Assembly (NCBI GenBank): GCA_025266875.1
Contig: JALLLT010000006.1
Span: forward strand, 1,178,001-1,242,000
Direction: 5' to 3'
From: Fennellomyces sp. T-0311
Lineage: Eukaryota > Mucoromycota > Mucoromycetes > Mucorales > Lichtheimiaceae
DNA: 64,000 bases
The notes under the pieces were generated by a model. It was not told the origin of the DNA. It ran no database searches and was given only the letters and a program-made list of their open reading frames with translations. A program made the position numbers and the translations under genes. Positions 4,403-57,541 of this stretch are shown piece by piece; the stretch's first letter is position 1, and each line of letters begins with the position of its first letter.

Positions 4403-5572
4403 ATGCAGCATGACGACCCGCAACGATTTCCCAAAGACTCCCCCCTTTCTGTCATCGATTCCTCAGGGCGACAAATAAGCCTACTCAACGACGGAGCAGC
4501 AGCTGCGGCAGCGGCGGCGGCGGCGGCGGCGGCAACAGGTCCTACAGCTCGCCCGCCGTTGTACACCCCGCAATCGATGGACTATGAGTCAACGCCGTCT
4601 AGGGACCAACCCTACGCCTACAACGTATCGCCCGCTGCGTCGTACTCGCCGTCATCGTCGAGCTCATCGTCCATGGAAGAAAACAGTAATCGTGACAGCA
4701 ATGCCCCTGAACAGCCATCGTGGAATTCGACGCAGGCTGCTCAGCCGCCCGCACCACAACCGCAACAAAAGTCGACGAACGGGCGGCGCAAATACCACTG
4801 CACAGAACCTGGCTGCAACAAGAGCTTTACAACAAGGTAAAGTAGTTTCGCTTGGTTATTTTTGGTAATTGATAAATGTATAACCAACACCCATCATCGC
4901 AGTGGCCACCTTGCCCGGCACAACCGCATCCACACCGGCGAAAAGAACTTCCCCTGCCTGTTCCCGGGCTGTCAATCACGCTTCTCGAGGCAGGACAACA
5001 TGATGCAACACTATCGAACACACATGTCACCCAAATCACGGCGGTCGCAGCGAAGCAAAGCCGCCGCCGTGGCCGCTGCTGAAGAAGCTCGACCACGGCC
5101 ACGGCTGCATGCACACCATCGCATTCGGTCTGATCCTTTCGGCGTCGAGCCACCACTGACCATCGACCAACATCTGAACAACTACCACCAGTCGCTCTTG
5201 TCACCCTCTGCAAGGACAGAGCGGTTCTCGCCCACGCGATATACGCAAGAGCGACAACGCACACCATCCACCCCTTCGTCTTCCACCGCCGCCACCTCCA
5301 GCAATGCAAACGACTCTAATAATACCAGTTCCGACAATACCTCGACGCCCGACAAACAGCAAGAAGAGCCATCCGCCATCTTTTACCAGCACCGCCCGCT
5401 CACGTTGCATTCGAATCCTGCTGGCCAGGGTCCACCTTTCCCTTTCACACTTCTGCACCCGCCGCTGAAACAGGATTCTGATGATCAGAATAAAGCCGCG
5501 CCTCGTGAGAATGACGATACTTCCGAGGGTGGTCTTCTTCAACTGGCCCACGTCGTCAGCACTTTCGGCTAA
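4403..5572 (+). CDS. C2H2 zinc-finger transcription factor, Nrg1/Nrg2-type
   Basis: Two exons, 4403-4836 and 4903-5572, 367 residues. The ATG at 4403 is the first true ATG in the frame. The N-terminal half is low-complexity with a run of about 13 alanines encoded mostly by GCG (around 4496-4534), then Ser/Pro/Gln-rich. Two adjacent C2H2 fingers straddle the intron: YHCTEPGCNKSF...SGHLARHNRIH and FPCLFPGCQSRFSRQDNMMQHYRTH, joined by a TGEKN linker. The SGHLARHNRIHTGEK and SRxDNxxQHYRTH signatures are those of yeast Nrg1/Nrg2, glucose and stress repressors. The nuclear repressor role is family inference, and target genes are unknown. A basic, Ala-rich stretch follows the fingers (KSRRSQRSKAAAVAAA), then a disordered Ser/Thr-rich tail. 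An unrelated family member with the same finger pair is possible. Confidence 0.85.
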
Positions 5573-52343: not shown

Positions 52344-52347
52344 GTAA
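52344..52347 (+). repeat. target-site duplication, left copy (GTAA)
   Basis: GTAA directly before the element's CACC end; repeated directly after the other end at 57538-57541. Confidence 0.75.
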
Positions 52348-52373
52348 CACCAAGGGAAAATTTCGTTCAAAAG
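52348..52373 (+). repeat. left terminal inverted repeat of the transposon
   Basis: Begins CACCAAGGGAAAA. Aligns to the reverse complement of 57512-57537 with one gap and a few mismatches. Confidence 0.8.
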
Positions 52374-52415
52374 TGTTCGCTTTTTGTGCAACTTCCAACA
52401 ACCATTAAAAAATTA

Positions 52416-52476
52416 CACTTTTTGAACACTACTTTTGTGCATTTTTCGTTCAGTTTTTGCACACTTTTTGAACACT
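52416..52476 (+). repeat. left subterminal repeats of the transposon
   Basis: The 15-mer CACTTTTTGAACACT occurs twice, at 52416-52430 and 52462-52476. The core CTTTTTGAACA recurs in inverse orientation at the other end, within 57455-57469. TTTTGTGCA-like words are interspersed. They are probable binding sites for an element-encoded protein. Confidence 0.75.
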
Positions 52477-52948
52477 TTAGTTTAGTTTTGCAGAGTAACA
52501 TGAGCATTCATTGGACAAAGAGCATATGGTTTGGCTTGATGTGTAGATGTTATTGGCCAAAAGTGCAAGCAGCCATGTAATTATTACAATTCAATTGGAC
52601 GTATGTGAATGAGTATTGTGGTATGTATATATAATAAGCATTTTATTTTTTTTACAAAGTTTCAGCTACGTCTTTGCCTGGATGAAGGTACAGACAGCAC
52701 TAGAAGAAAAATTAAAGTCGTTAACTACGTTGAATATTCACATAGCAACTAATACTAACTTTCGACCTACGTAGAAGTAATGCTAGAGGATACATATTAT
52801 GAAGTACAATATTAGTATCTACCTTACATTGTTCGTGAATTGTGGAATAGGCAAGCAGATCTCTTGCAAGAGTTGATAATCGACTTGTTTGAGCTATAAT
52901 TACTAAGATTGGCTTTGCTTACCTTTCATCCACCAGCACCCAATTTCT

Positions 52949-54086
52949 TTACTTTCGGCGTTTGTTGGATTTCTTTGTCTTCTGACGCTTTTTCGGCTGT
53001 TCAGCATTATCCTCACCTAGGAGGAAGAAGCACCGAGTGACGATTATTAGCAACAGGGTGCCAATCAAATAAATTTACAATACATACCATTTCCACCTTG
53101 CTCACCTCGACTACCATTGTGCTTGGATCGTTTGCGCGATGGTTTGGGTGGTGGGAGGCTTTCTTCCTCATCCGATTGTTGGACATCTGGGAGAGGAAGA
53201 GAGAGTACAGGAGAAACATTCGCTCCTTGAATCGACAATTCTCTAAAGTATATATATGCATTCAGTACATACCTCATTTATAGCCATTGCAGTCATTAGA
53301 ACTTTTAGTTGCACTTACCCCTCCTCTCTCTCGCCTTCTGCAATAGCAGCCGCGGGCTCCCTGGTGCCCTCTGCGGCTGGGTGGCCTTCCGCGCATGGTG
53401 ATCGCGGAGCAACTTCTTCTGCTGGTACTTCTGGATCCACTGCTGGTGGTAGGGAGACCTCTGCGTCAATATGATGGTGAATTTGAGACCTCTCATACAA
53501 AGTATAGCTTACTGGCCGGTCCCGTAGCACTCTTCTTGTATGGCTTCCAAAATTTTCTCAAGAAGAGACGAGCGCCTAGCTGCAGCTCATCTGGTACTTC
53601 GCGCCAGAGATCAGGAACCTCACCCATTTTTTCAAGGCATTCGTCTCTGAGTCTAGCACCGGCTAACTTTGCGATTGGCCTACAGTTAGACTTCGCTGTC
53701 CTGAAGAACTTCGCCTGGTAGTCATCGCCAAGGGCTTGCTTCATAAGATCCTTGTATAGTCCCCAGCTGAACTGTGCGTCCGTGGTTTGACCCCTCTTGT
53801 TTTTGACAGTGGGGATCTTCACACAGCGCTCGAGCGGGGGGAAAGTAGGCAGCTCCGAAGACGGGGGAAGATGTCCCCCAAGGGTTGGAGGTGTTCCGTC
53901 CTGCTCCTGCGAACCCACATGGCGCGCTAGATTGCGAAGCTCTGAATGCAAATCACTAATTGCCGTCTTGAGCTCCAATCGTTCTTGTTTCATTTCTGCG
54001 ATTATGCTTTGGAATGCTTCGCGGTCTTGTTTAGACTTTTTCTTCAACTTTTCGTAAGCCTTGGACAGTTTTTCTAATGAAGCCAT
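52949..54086 (-). CDS. transposon accessory protein (coiled coil, basic tail)
   Basis: Four exons: 54086-53513, 53460-53319, 53242-53088, 53016-52949; 312 residues with consistent phases. The N-terminus is a coiled coil (MASLEKLSKAYEKLKKKSKQ ... ELKTAISDLHSELRNLARHV), followed by a Pro-rich linker and a compact central region (FSWGLYKDLMKQALGDDYQ; CLEKMGEVPDLWREVPDEL; FLRKFWKPYKK). An acidic/Pro-rich stretch and two basic clusters with nuclear-localisation character (PKPSRKRSKHN; PKKRQKTKKSNKRRK) close it. I recognise no Pfam-type domain. Plant CACTA elements encode a second protein (TNPA) that binds subterminal repeats; the same role is inferred from position only. It could instead be a regulator or capsid-unrelated helper. 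Confidence 0.7.
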
Positions 54087-54353
54087 GGTGAGTAAGTACT
54101 TATTTGAGTAAGGTGAAAGAACCAGAAGGAGCAGAGAAGAGAGTACGTAGGCAAGTGTTACTGATTGACATAAGCCATATTAGGAAGTTGGTAAACAACG
54201 CACCATATGTGGGACAGTGACCAGTCAAGTTTCGTTATTCTGGTCAATCATACGTACATAGAGAACAACTCGTTTGAAATAATACTTATATTGTTATATA
54301 TATGTGTGGGTTATGTCATGATTCTAAATTAATATCTGATCAGCGGTTTCTAT

Positions 54354-57300
54354 CTAGTTGTATAACAAGTTGGGATCGAAGATGAGCTGAGACTTATCCG
54401 AGGCTGGGTTATGTGGATAGAAGATATACTGTCGCCCGTTATCTGACTCTGCCCGTCCAGCAGGAGAAACGATTGACTTAATGTCAACAACCATTGGTTT
54501 TGTTTGAGTAGAGGCTGTCTTGTAAGGCCATATATCACTCATTCGGATCCGAACTGTATTGACAACTGCAAGCAGTGCCTGATCATCTCCTCGCTTATGA
54601 CGGAAAAAGCATAAAATGTCACCGAAATAAGTAACATACTGCATGTTCTTTCTCTTTGATCTGCTTCGGTCTGTGTTGAGCTTCACCCATAAGCGAACGA
54701 AAGAGTTGTTTTGTGACCTGTGGGCATTCTCTCTACCAAAAGTGCTTCCCCAAATATTATTATCCACCCAGCATCGACTTGCAACTCGGATCGATTCCGT
54801 ACGCGCCACGGTGACATTTCTGTAAGTGCCTAAACGATTTGCCCAGTAGAATACAAGGGCATTTTCGATACCTAATTGGCCAATGGTTTTTTCATCGTAA
54901 GGGCCCCAGAGTTCTCCCAGATCGGGATCCAGCAACGTTATTACATCCGGCGTTCGTCGTGGTTTAGCAGCAGGTTCGTTTCGTTTAGCATATCTGATAG
55001 CAGCCAGAGCAACAACCACATTTTGCGAATTGGCCACAGGATCCTTCTTTGACGTGATATTTCGCTTGATCTCGCCTATTGTCCTTTCCATTGCAAACGC
55101 TGCATATACAGGCAGAGGTCCCATGAACTGGATTACCTTAGACAAGTGTAAGAGATAATGTTGAGATATAGTGAAGACCTTAACGCTGATTTTTTCTTCA
55201 TCATGGAACTTCAAGAGAGAGCGCAACCAGATCAAAGAATGCTTCTTGATGTCCTTGATGTCTTCTCCAGTAACCTTTCGACGGCACGCAAGGTTGTACA
55301 GGGTTACCAGGGATATCACCGCATTTTTCGCTTCAATATCGTGGATGTGTTCCAACACCAGTGTCGGTACGATATAACGCATAAAGTAGATCCATTCCAC
55401 TGCTTTAAAAAAGCCAGCCTTCTTTGAAATGTTACCACAAATACCTGCGAATTCACTAGGAACTAATGACTTGGATCTTTCCATGGAAATACCAATCTTT
55501 GACAGTGTAGCAGGCGGTAAGTAGAATGGGTTGTTGGCCTTCCCGAATCTCCCATTAAGAAGTTTGTAGAACTGCCGTCCAACTCCTGGGCCAAGAAGGT
55601 GCATCAGATCAATAGGGTAGAAGAAAGGGCTATGGAACGATGGAAGCATAGCCAAGATGGATCCTCTGATGTCCTTTTCTGCTATCGTTTCTGTTGCCTC
55701 AGCTTCAACAGAACCGTCGTCTGTCACCGACATTTCAGTACCCGAATCATCAAGATCTGATTCTTCTGATTCAGGCTGCTCTGAAACATGAGGTTGTTCA
55801 GACGGATCAGCTTTTGGGCAGAAGGTTTGGTTTGCTCGTAAAGGAGACATAGATGCGCCTTCGGGTGGAGGCATGAATACCATCCGGTTTTCCCTTCTTT
55901 CGCCGTAAACTTCGCAAAATCTGCATCCATAATGTGCCATGTATCCTCTATGTCCACACATCTTCGCCACTGCTGGTATATCACCGCCAGCAAACAAAAG
56001 AATCGCCTTAAATCCGATTTCCTTGTTATTGTTGGTCTTGACAGACATTCCTTGTGTGCCTAGTGTAGTTAGCTCATCAATGACCGGTGACAGAAAGCTG
56101 AACAAATCCTTCGGCTGCTGTAATCCAGGTACTACACACGTTTGGAGCATGTACTTGTTTTCATATCGAATGGATGGAGGAAGGTTGAAGATGATAAAAT
56201 GAACGATCGTCATGGACCGTCCTCCGTTCTTGAATGGATTGAATCCGTCAGTGTACATGCCCAGATGAATCGTGTTGTTATCAGTGCGTTGGTAGCGTTG
56301 AAGCAACTTGAAGGCTTCTCCATCGAAGATGTCTGCCTTCGCTTCTTCATTGCTTGGCACGCCTGAGATGAAATGCTTTCTCACTTCCTGATCGTTCAAC
56401 ATGAGTGCGAGCTGTTTCGCCAAGGACAAGTACTTCATCTTCTGCTGCGGCTCCAAGCGGGTTTTGTCTTTGAAGCGGTCTTTTTTACAGTGCAAGCACT
56501 GTTCATCCGGATCGCAACGAGGTTTGGTAAACAGCATACATCCGTCGGGACACATATCATAGACTTCTGGCTGGAGGGGGTACTGCTTCAACAAAGACTC
56601 CTTCGCCTTGTAATTGCTTGGCAGTGCTGGAAGATAGCCATGGATGTACTCATTGAAACGATCAGTCATCTTTTCCATAAAGCGGCGAGGAACCTTGTAC
56701 TCTAAACCAAGTTGATATAGGTCAGTGGAGAGTGCTACATTTTTTTCGATCGTCAGCTTCACGCGTGAGGAAAAATCGAATGTTGTATTCAAATTCGTAT
56801 TGGCGGCGGTCGAGAATGGAGCGGGTACCGAGGACGCACCAGTGATTCCCAATCCCGGTGTATCATCATATCCATCGGTGTCCGATAAGGAGCCCTCTTC
56901 CGATAAAGTCGCCACCGCCTCCTCCTCGAGAGGTGCAGCGAATTCGTCGTCGTCATCTTCATCAATGGCGGGACAGCTCGCCACAGCATTACCTTGAACA
57001 GGTCTTGCGCCCTGTGCTATCTGTGTGTCATCCTCGAGTGGTGGTGATGGTGCTAGTGACACACCCAAGTCCATATCCACATCATCCCCAAGATCGTACA
57101 TCTGTTCAGTGGGAAGTGCAGTATCTCTTCCAGCATTGATGGATACATCGCGTTGCGCTTCCTATTGGCAACCTTAGCGCTTCTGTGGCAAGGAGCGGAA
57201 AACATGGTGATCTTACATTAGAAACACTGATGCTGTGAGCCCTGGAATCGATTTCCTCGTAGATGCGTCTGGCCATCACGTCGCCACATTCTTCTAAATG

Positions 57301-57378
57301 CTGCGCTTTCGGTGTGGTTTGATTGTTGAACCAGGTACCGCAGAAATCGCAATGGTATTCGAAATTTTTTGAAGACAT
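54354..57378 (-). CDS. CACTA transposase, Tnp2 family (Transposase_21-like)
   Basis: Two exons, 57378-57217 and 57161-54354, 989 residues. Exon 1 encodes a C2H2-like finger (YHCDFCGTWFNNQTTPKAQH...C). After an acidic region come the Tnp2 landmarks: CPDGCMLF with a following CLHCKKD (about 258-280), YTDGFNPFKNGG (first catalytic Asp, about 359), LLFAGGDIPAVAKMCGH (second, about 448), the zinc-like GCRFCEVYG, and FYPIDLMHLLGPG (likely third, about 571). The catalytic assignment is by analogy with the DDD/E superfamily. The long exon has no stop, so the enzyme may be active. The finger-bearing exon was found by following the open frame across a 55-bp intron to an ATG at 57378. Confidence 0.88.
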
Positions 57379-57454
57379 GGCTGAAAAAAGGTTCAGGTGA
57401 TGTGCCTGAGTGTTGAGTTTATGTTTAAAAAAGCGCACAGTTTGTGTGCAGTAA

Positions 57455-57537
57455 ATGTTCAAAAAGCACACATTTTCTGCACATTGAACACAACTAGCAC
57501 ACTTTTGGAAATTTTTGCACAAATTTTTCCCATGGTG
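57455..57537 (-). repeat. right terminal and subterminal repeats of the transposon
   Basis: On the minus strand the end reads CACCATGGGAAAAATTT, then TGTGC/GAACA words and, at 57455-57469, GTGCTTTTTGAACAT, which matches the left 15-mer over 11 bases. Confidence 0.78.
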
Positions 57538-57541
57538 GTAA
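57538..57541 (+). repeat. target-site duplication, right copy (GTAA)
   Basis: Direct repeat of 52344-52347 at the outer edge of the right terminus. Confidence 0.75.

Follow-up and report, generated by a model that had tools for sequence, protein, structure and literature searches.

A CACTA-type transposon with CACC ends and an apparent 4-bp target-site duplication in Fennellomyces sp. T-0311

Does an element with CACC ends and an abutting 4-base-pair (bp) repeat belong with the CACTA-type transposons, and does it insert with a stagger of its own? The question is raised by a 5190-bp element in the genome of Fennellomyces sp. T-0311 (Mucorales, Lichtheimiaceae; 45.6 Mb, 182 contigs), at positions 52348-57537 of the window, by which we mean the whole 64,000-nucleotide stretch of contig JALLLT010000006.1 that was analyzed. 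Its ends are bounded and recur in several copies; it has terminal and subterminal repeats, its transposase frame is complete and keeps the signature residues, and it carries a second conserved gene. We conclude, with a probability of roughly 0.7, that it is a cut-and-paste transposon of the CMC/CMCT group (here EnSpm, Mirage, Chapaev, Transib, and kin) with a CACTA-type Tnp2 transposase, CACC ends, and a 4-bp stagger.

Ends and transposase of the element

The left end reads CACCAAGGGAAAA at 52348 and the right end reads CACCATGGGAAAA inward from 57537; both begin with CACC. The first 25 positions form terminal repeats, with 21 of 25 matching, and GTAA abuts the element on either side (Table 1). 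Matches to the subterminal motifs TTTTTGCACAC, TTTTTGAACAC, and CTTTTTGNACA (at most one mismatch) are confined to the outer ~175 bp at either end of the element. As a control, we shuffled the 4-kb stretch surrounding each end 200 times with dinucleotides preserved. Of these shuffles, 30 produced one or more CAC..GTG pairs with 12 or more of 13 bases matching, and none produced a pair that also had an abutting 4-bp repeat. The real sequence around the ends has a single CAC..GTG pair of that quality, with the 4-bp repeat abutting it. A terminal match of this kind is not very rare by itself; it is rare once combined with the repeat and with copies that end at identical bases. The shuffle control ruled out a chance origin of the ends.

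The transposase gene consists of one 915-amino-acid ATG frame on the minus strand, joined to a first exon over a 55-bp GT..AG intron to give a 989-amino-acid product with no stop. This product matches the Pfam family Transposase_21/tnp2 (PF02992; E = 3.1e-19, over the curated cutoff), the transposase family of CACTA/EnSpm elements in the strict definition. With the signature motif as defined in the available text of PMC12730594, all residues are kept (915-amino-acid numbering): D285, D374, and E672 of DDE, C393/C396 of C(2)C, and H648/H652 of H(3)H, the last pair placed by reading the sequence together with the A2 consensus and the others by alignment. The catalytic D/D/E triad and the C(2)C pair can be aligned across sister families of the same genome, described below, and across those Rhizopus, Ceratobasidium, and plant proteins that include the relevant stretches. 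A protein search that scored 7991 candidates listed 14 relatives. They come from Rhizopus, Ceratobasidium, and plants, and several are named Tnp2 or CACTA; the top match is a Rhizopus delemar protein (28% identity over 69% of the query), and the closest outside relatives listed are from Rhizopus. No solved structure matched the transposase in a sequence-based search.

The ends and the repeat would also suit a Chapaev-type element lying outside the CACTA line, given the traits published for Chapaev in the available part of PMC4079192 (3- to 4-bp duplications and CAC..GTG ends). The match to Transposase_21/tnp2 and the listed relatives, several named Tnp2 or CACTA, speak against such an assignment, although the transposase tree held no Chapaev sequences, and we consider it very improbable. 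By the definition of the wider CMC/CMCT group, CA..TG ends and a 2- to 5-bp duplication, the element belongs: copies have CACC..GGTG ends, and GTAA or AGTT is duplicated in 2 of 4 copies. The strict CACTA/EnSpm definition asks for CACTA/CACTG ends, and here both ends are CACC, within the looser CAC..GTG rule found in the available text of PMC12730594; the subterminal repeats and second gene of the strict definition are both present. That definition further expects a 3-bp duplication (2 to 3 bp), whereas the window subfamily has exact 4-bp repeats at two of four copies and exact 3-bp repeats at none, with 3 bp plus carried bases as a less likely alternative. The original prediction of a bounded CMC-group DNA transposon with CACC ends and an abutting 4-bp repeat is supported. 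Its ends and GTAA flanks lie where they had been placed, its subterminal repeats are real and confined near the ends, and the proposed 989-codon Tnp2-type transposase without a stop is recovered once the intron is removed.

Copies and target-site duplications

A whole-element search of the genome gave 22 matches. Two near-identical copies, C94:133279-138557 (C94) and C139:791086-796372 (C139:791k), match the element from first base to last; C27, of which the left part runs off its contig, shares the right end, and C149 shares the left end. The window copy, C27, and C139:791k keep the 989-amino-acid frame open, whereas in C94 it is disrupted. C27 matches C139:791k at 100% identity along 4592 bp, which points to recent movement. 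A relative at C57:401834-407178 (69% nucleotide identity) has both ends, whereas C46 and C54 each want one. In the left terminal repeat, CACCAAGGG occurs in the window copy only, and CACCATGGG occurs in C94, C139:791k, C149, C57, and C46. With up to two mismatches allowed, the end pattern is found at 84 sites in the genome, compared with 32 for the reversed pattern; flanks were inspected at 30 of the 84.

We built a transposase tree from 23 of 30 rows, seven having been dropped beforehand. One clade unites the window subfamily with C46, C54, and C57, the families with CACC ends and 3-bp duplications form a second together with C112, and two families with CACTA ends form a third (support, 100/100 for each). 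The branching order among the three clades is not well supported, and the Rhizopus proteins lie nearest the second. Seven rows make up the group labeled 4 bp, of which only two show the repeat. CACC ends are found in the window subfamily and in three other families (A, C117f, and C154), and CACTA ends are found in two (D and E). Since CACC ends occur in two clades, they either are old in the group or have arisen twice. The transposases of all five sister families are 35 to 43% identical to that of the window element over the matched parts.

Target-site duplications were tabulated for 16 copies in six groups, with both flanks known for each copy. In the five sister families, exact 3-bp repeats flank 9 of 12 copies and exact 4-bp repeats flank none: TTC, TGT, and ACG in C117f (four copies, one without a repeat); TTA, CTA, and CAG in family A (C1/C95/C97; three copies); CTC in C154 (one copy); TGC in family D and GAC in family E (two copies each, one without a repeat). 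In contrast, the four copies of the window subfamily include two with exact 4-bp repeats, GTAA in the window and AGTT in C57, and none with an exact 3-bp repeat. GTAA and AGTT mark separate insertions. With equal base odds, the chance of at least two exact 4-bp repeats in four copies is ~9e-5, and among 240 mismatched pairs of left and right flanks, 3 match at 3 bp and none at 4 bp. It appears, then, that the sister families make 3-bp duplications and the window subfamily makes 4-bp duplications. Because 9 of 12 sister copies are exact at 3 bp and two of four window-subfamily copies are exact at 4 bp, the insertion stagger of the subfamily has probably changed from 3 to 4 bp, and we lean toward a change in strand-transfer spacing within the window clade, with the CACC-ended sister clades keeping 3 bp.

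Several observations weigh against a 4-bp stagger or against the wider interpretation of the element. The 4-bp case rests on two copies, and the other two have no exact repeat: C94 (TAAT..ATAA) gains a 4-bp repeat only when given one extra left-end base, and C139:791k (CCGG..ACCA), a recent copy, gains a 3-bp repeat only when given two. When one or two bases are allowed before the left end, a repeat of 3 bp or more appears in every one of the four copies (GTA+A, AGT+T, ATA+AT, and ACC+GG). The right end of C54, a member of the same clade, reads CACT. No empty site for the window copy was found in the genome, in which its flanks are single-copy. Finally, structure models of both proteins of the element are weak, with mean predicted local distance difference test (pLDDT) scores of 43.7 and 43.6.

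These observations bear on two other accounts of the flanks. The first holds that the usual 3-bp stagger is combined with a loose cut at the left end, such that one or two donor bases are carried along and the apparent fourth base is a lucky match. It draws on the pattern in all four copies, on the 3-bp duplications of the sister families, and on the low background of that pattern, a left offset of 0 to 2 giving 3 bp in just 5 of 240 mismatched pairs. However, the carried base must happen to be identical to the adjoining flank base in both the window and C57 (~1 in 16 together), with a fourth match in C94 besides; the nine exact 3-bp sister copies need no extra bases; and the pattern was found post hoc, after the data had been inspected. 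We prefer a 4-bp stagger because a carried base would need a lucky match in both exact cases, and we regard the loose cut as unlikely. The second account holds that the window and C57 repeats are chance and that the subfamily has ceased to produce any defined duplication. The exact repeat is indeed absent from two of four copies, one of them recent, but a chance of ~9e-5 and the absence of any such case among the 240 mismatched pairs and the 200 shuffles leave this account with very little probability. A flank swap between near-identical copies was also considered as the reason for the missing repeats; among the subfamily flanks compared, no left flank matched the right flank of another copy. 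Genome searches with the flanks of C94 and C139:791k returned partial or weak repeat matches only and no empty site, and a search with one flank of C57 returned one weak match.

Other copies had been expected to start and stop at the same bases, each between 4-bp repeats of its own. Both further two-ended copies, C94 and C139:791k, share the end bases, as do the right end of C27 and the left end of C149; the C57 relative has its own 4-bp repeat, and C94 and C139:791k do not, so that the duplication is exact in two of four testable copies. CACC ends and a 4-bp duplication had also been taken jointly to suggest a divergent fungal lineage. We rejected CACC as a hallmark of a 4-bp lineage, since three CACC families of this genome leave 3 bp; the two traits are separate. 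The CACC end is widespread in the genome, and we take the 4-bp stagger to be the distinguishing feature of the window subfamily.

The probable course of events is as follows. The transposase would bring the ends together, perhaps with the help of the zinc-finger-like motif near its N terminus and of the accessory product of the second gene, bound to the subterminal repeats. It would then cut at the CACC ends and join them to the target with a 4-bp stagger, and repair of the staggered target would yield the duplication. The window copy would have inserted in this way with duplication of GTAA and lost part of its accessory gene later.

The accessory gene and related repeats in the genome

The second gene lies on the same strand as the transposase gene, and its product is predicted to form a coiled coil at the N terminus and has a basic C terminus. 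No notable Pfam match was obtained for the protein, and all of its database matches come from Fennellomyces. The gene adjoins the transposase gene in several sister families, and relatives of the protein are found in families A, C117f, C154, and E. A profile scan detected the protein at 13 of 21 loci, including one CACTA-ended family; 5 of the 13 positive loci had themselves been used to build the profile, and several of the loci scanned are not long enough to contain the gene. A link between CACC ends and the accessory protein was considered because a genome search listed no matches in families D and E, which have CACTA ends; it was rejected when the profile found the protein in family E (E = 5.9e-10). 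TNPA of plant CACTA elements helps bind subterminal repeats. By analogy, the accessory coiled-coil protein may do the same here.

The window copy lacks 69 bp of the accessory gene in frame. The stretch deleted is retained in C94, in C139:791k, and in the C27 product P0017, and the residues lost include a PLxxCxxxW motif that is present in 7 of 7 other aligned rows. The gene probably lost these 23 codons after the insertion at GTAA, and the protein would then be needed from another copy. Hence, the description of the element as intact holds for its ends and transposase; it does not hold for the accessory gene or for the left terminal repeat, which has a private substitution.

Table 1. Coordinates of features of the element in the window
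Feature	Position	Strand	Details
4-bp direct repeat GTAA, left copy	52344..52347		
Left terminal inverted repeat CACCAAGGGAAAATTTCGTTCAAAA	52348..52372	+	21/25 match to right repeat; position-6 A private to window copy
Left subterminal repeats TTTTTG[AC]ACAC	52419..52475	+	At 52419, 52454, 52465
Accessory gene (annotated as BJV82DRAFT_596480, 312 amino acids)	52952..54086	-	Exon pieces ~53511-54086, 53303-53467, 53086-53241, 52952-53017; first ATG frame 53493-54086
Junction of 69-bp in-frame deletion (23 codons), accessory gene	53570..53577	-	At GCGCC microhomology
Transposase exon 2	54354..57161	-	915-amino-acid ATG frame 54354-57101 plus 20 codons upstream
Predicted 55-bp intron GTAAG..AATAG	57162..57216	-	Of three acceptors tried, the sole one restoring the full frame
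Transposase exon 1, 54 amino acids	57217..57378	-	Zinc-finger-like motif C-x2-C ... H-x4-C, read by eye
Right subterminal repeats	57366..57522		Element positions 5019, 5108 (reverse), 5165
Right terminal inverted repeat CACCATGGGAAAAATTTGTGCAAAA inward	57513..57537	-	
4-bp direct repeat GTAA, right copy	57538..57541		

Related sequences recur elsewhere in the genome. Tnp2 relatives are numerous (at least 80 matches, best 50 of 584 candidates scored), and several Tnp2 families have copies identical over the compared stretches, which points to recent activity. C117 has one end of the element, present twice: at C117:623309-635450, a relative lies in two opposite copies with identical scores and a common outer flank, as in an inverted duplication. 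The right end of the C54 relative (locus L014, 5893-7375) contains 1483 bp of inserted DNA that has a long terminal inverted repeat (99/100 match) and TA flanks, probably another, nested DNA transposon. A repeat beginning (A)CACAGTGGGAAAATTTTCC (L042 and L045, from 1500; C2:712637 and C17:17785) is 97% identical over 1401 bp with differing flanks; it resembles the element end, and no obvious inverted partner was seen. At ~26 places (e.g., C1:1016819 and C117:133555), away from the listed Tnp2 matches, there are frames of mostly 195 to 288 amino acids with 27 to 31% identity to the accessory protein. They may represent another transposon family, one whose transposase is of a different type or escaped detection.

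Implications and comparison with known systems

If the 4-bp stagger is real, related transposases with matching ends and different duplication lengths stand side by side in one genome, a natural experiment on how the stagger is set. Comparison and domain swaps could then be used to look for the residues of CMC transposases that determine the stagger. The analysis also adds well-bounded CACTA families from Mucorales, with a conserved accessory protein outside Pfam families. Searches for such elements in these fungi cannot treat CACTA ends, CACC ends, or a 3-bp duplication as an invariable criterion.

EnSpm elements were found in all Mucorales sequenced in PMC7928374, as far as its available text goes. 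In the literature searched, we found no report of CACC ends or of a 4-bp duplication in fungal CACTA elements; Repbase, which may well record such a family, lay outside the search. Like plant CACTA/EnSpm elements of the En/Spm type, as described in the available part of PMC8978399, the window element has a Tnp2 transposase, subterminal repeats, and a second gene; PMC1636069 also treats the roles of the plant proteins TNPA and TNPD. The plant elements have CACTA ends and a reported 3-bp duplication, whereas the window element has CACC ends and an apparent 4-bp duplication, and its accessory protein, with the Pfam and database results given above, is a further point of difference. Within the genome, families A, C117f, and C154 share CACC ends and a related accessory protein with the window element, family E shares the accessory protein, and families D and E differ in having CACTA ends; all five are unlike the window subfamily in their 3-bp duplications.

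According to the available text of PMC12730594, CMCT elements mostly have CA..TG ends and 2- to 5-bp duplications, fungal EnSpm elements duplicate 3 bp, and those of Puccinia do so with CAC..GTG ends. The accessible portion of PMC12810828 gives CACTG ends and 3 bp for CNIRT6 of Cryptococcus and CACGG ends and 2 bp for CNEST; that of PMC1636069 gives CCC ends for the animal element SmTRC1, with 2 bp in 7 of 14 copies. On these partial sources, Puccinia EnSpm and CNIRT6 resemble the window element in their fungal CMC transposases and CAC..GTG ends, and the window subfamily differs from them in its CACC ends and in the 4 bp of two copies. Chapaev elements, on a similarly partial source, share the end triplet and the duplication length; the window transposase, by its Pfam family and listed relatives, is of the Tnp2 family. 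Since end letters and duplication length vary across the group, with Chapaev spanning 3 and 4 bp, the window element is best seen as a variant of this group and not as a new kind of transposon.

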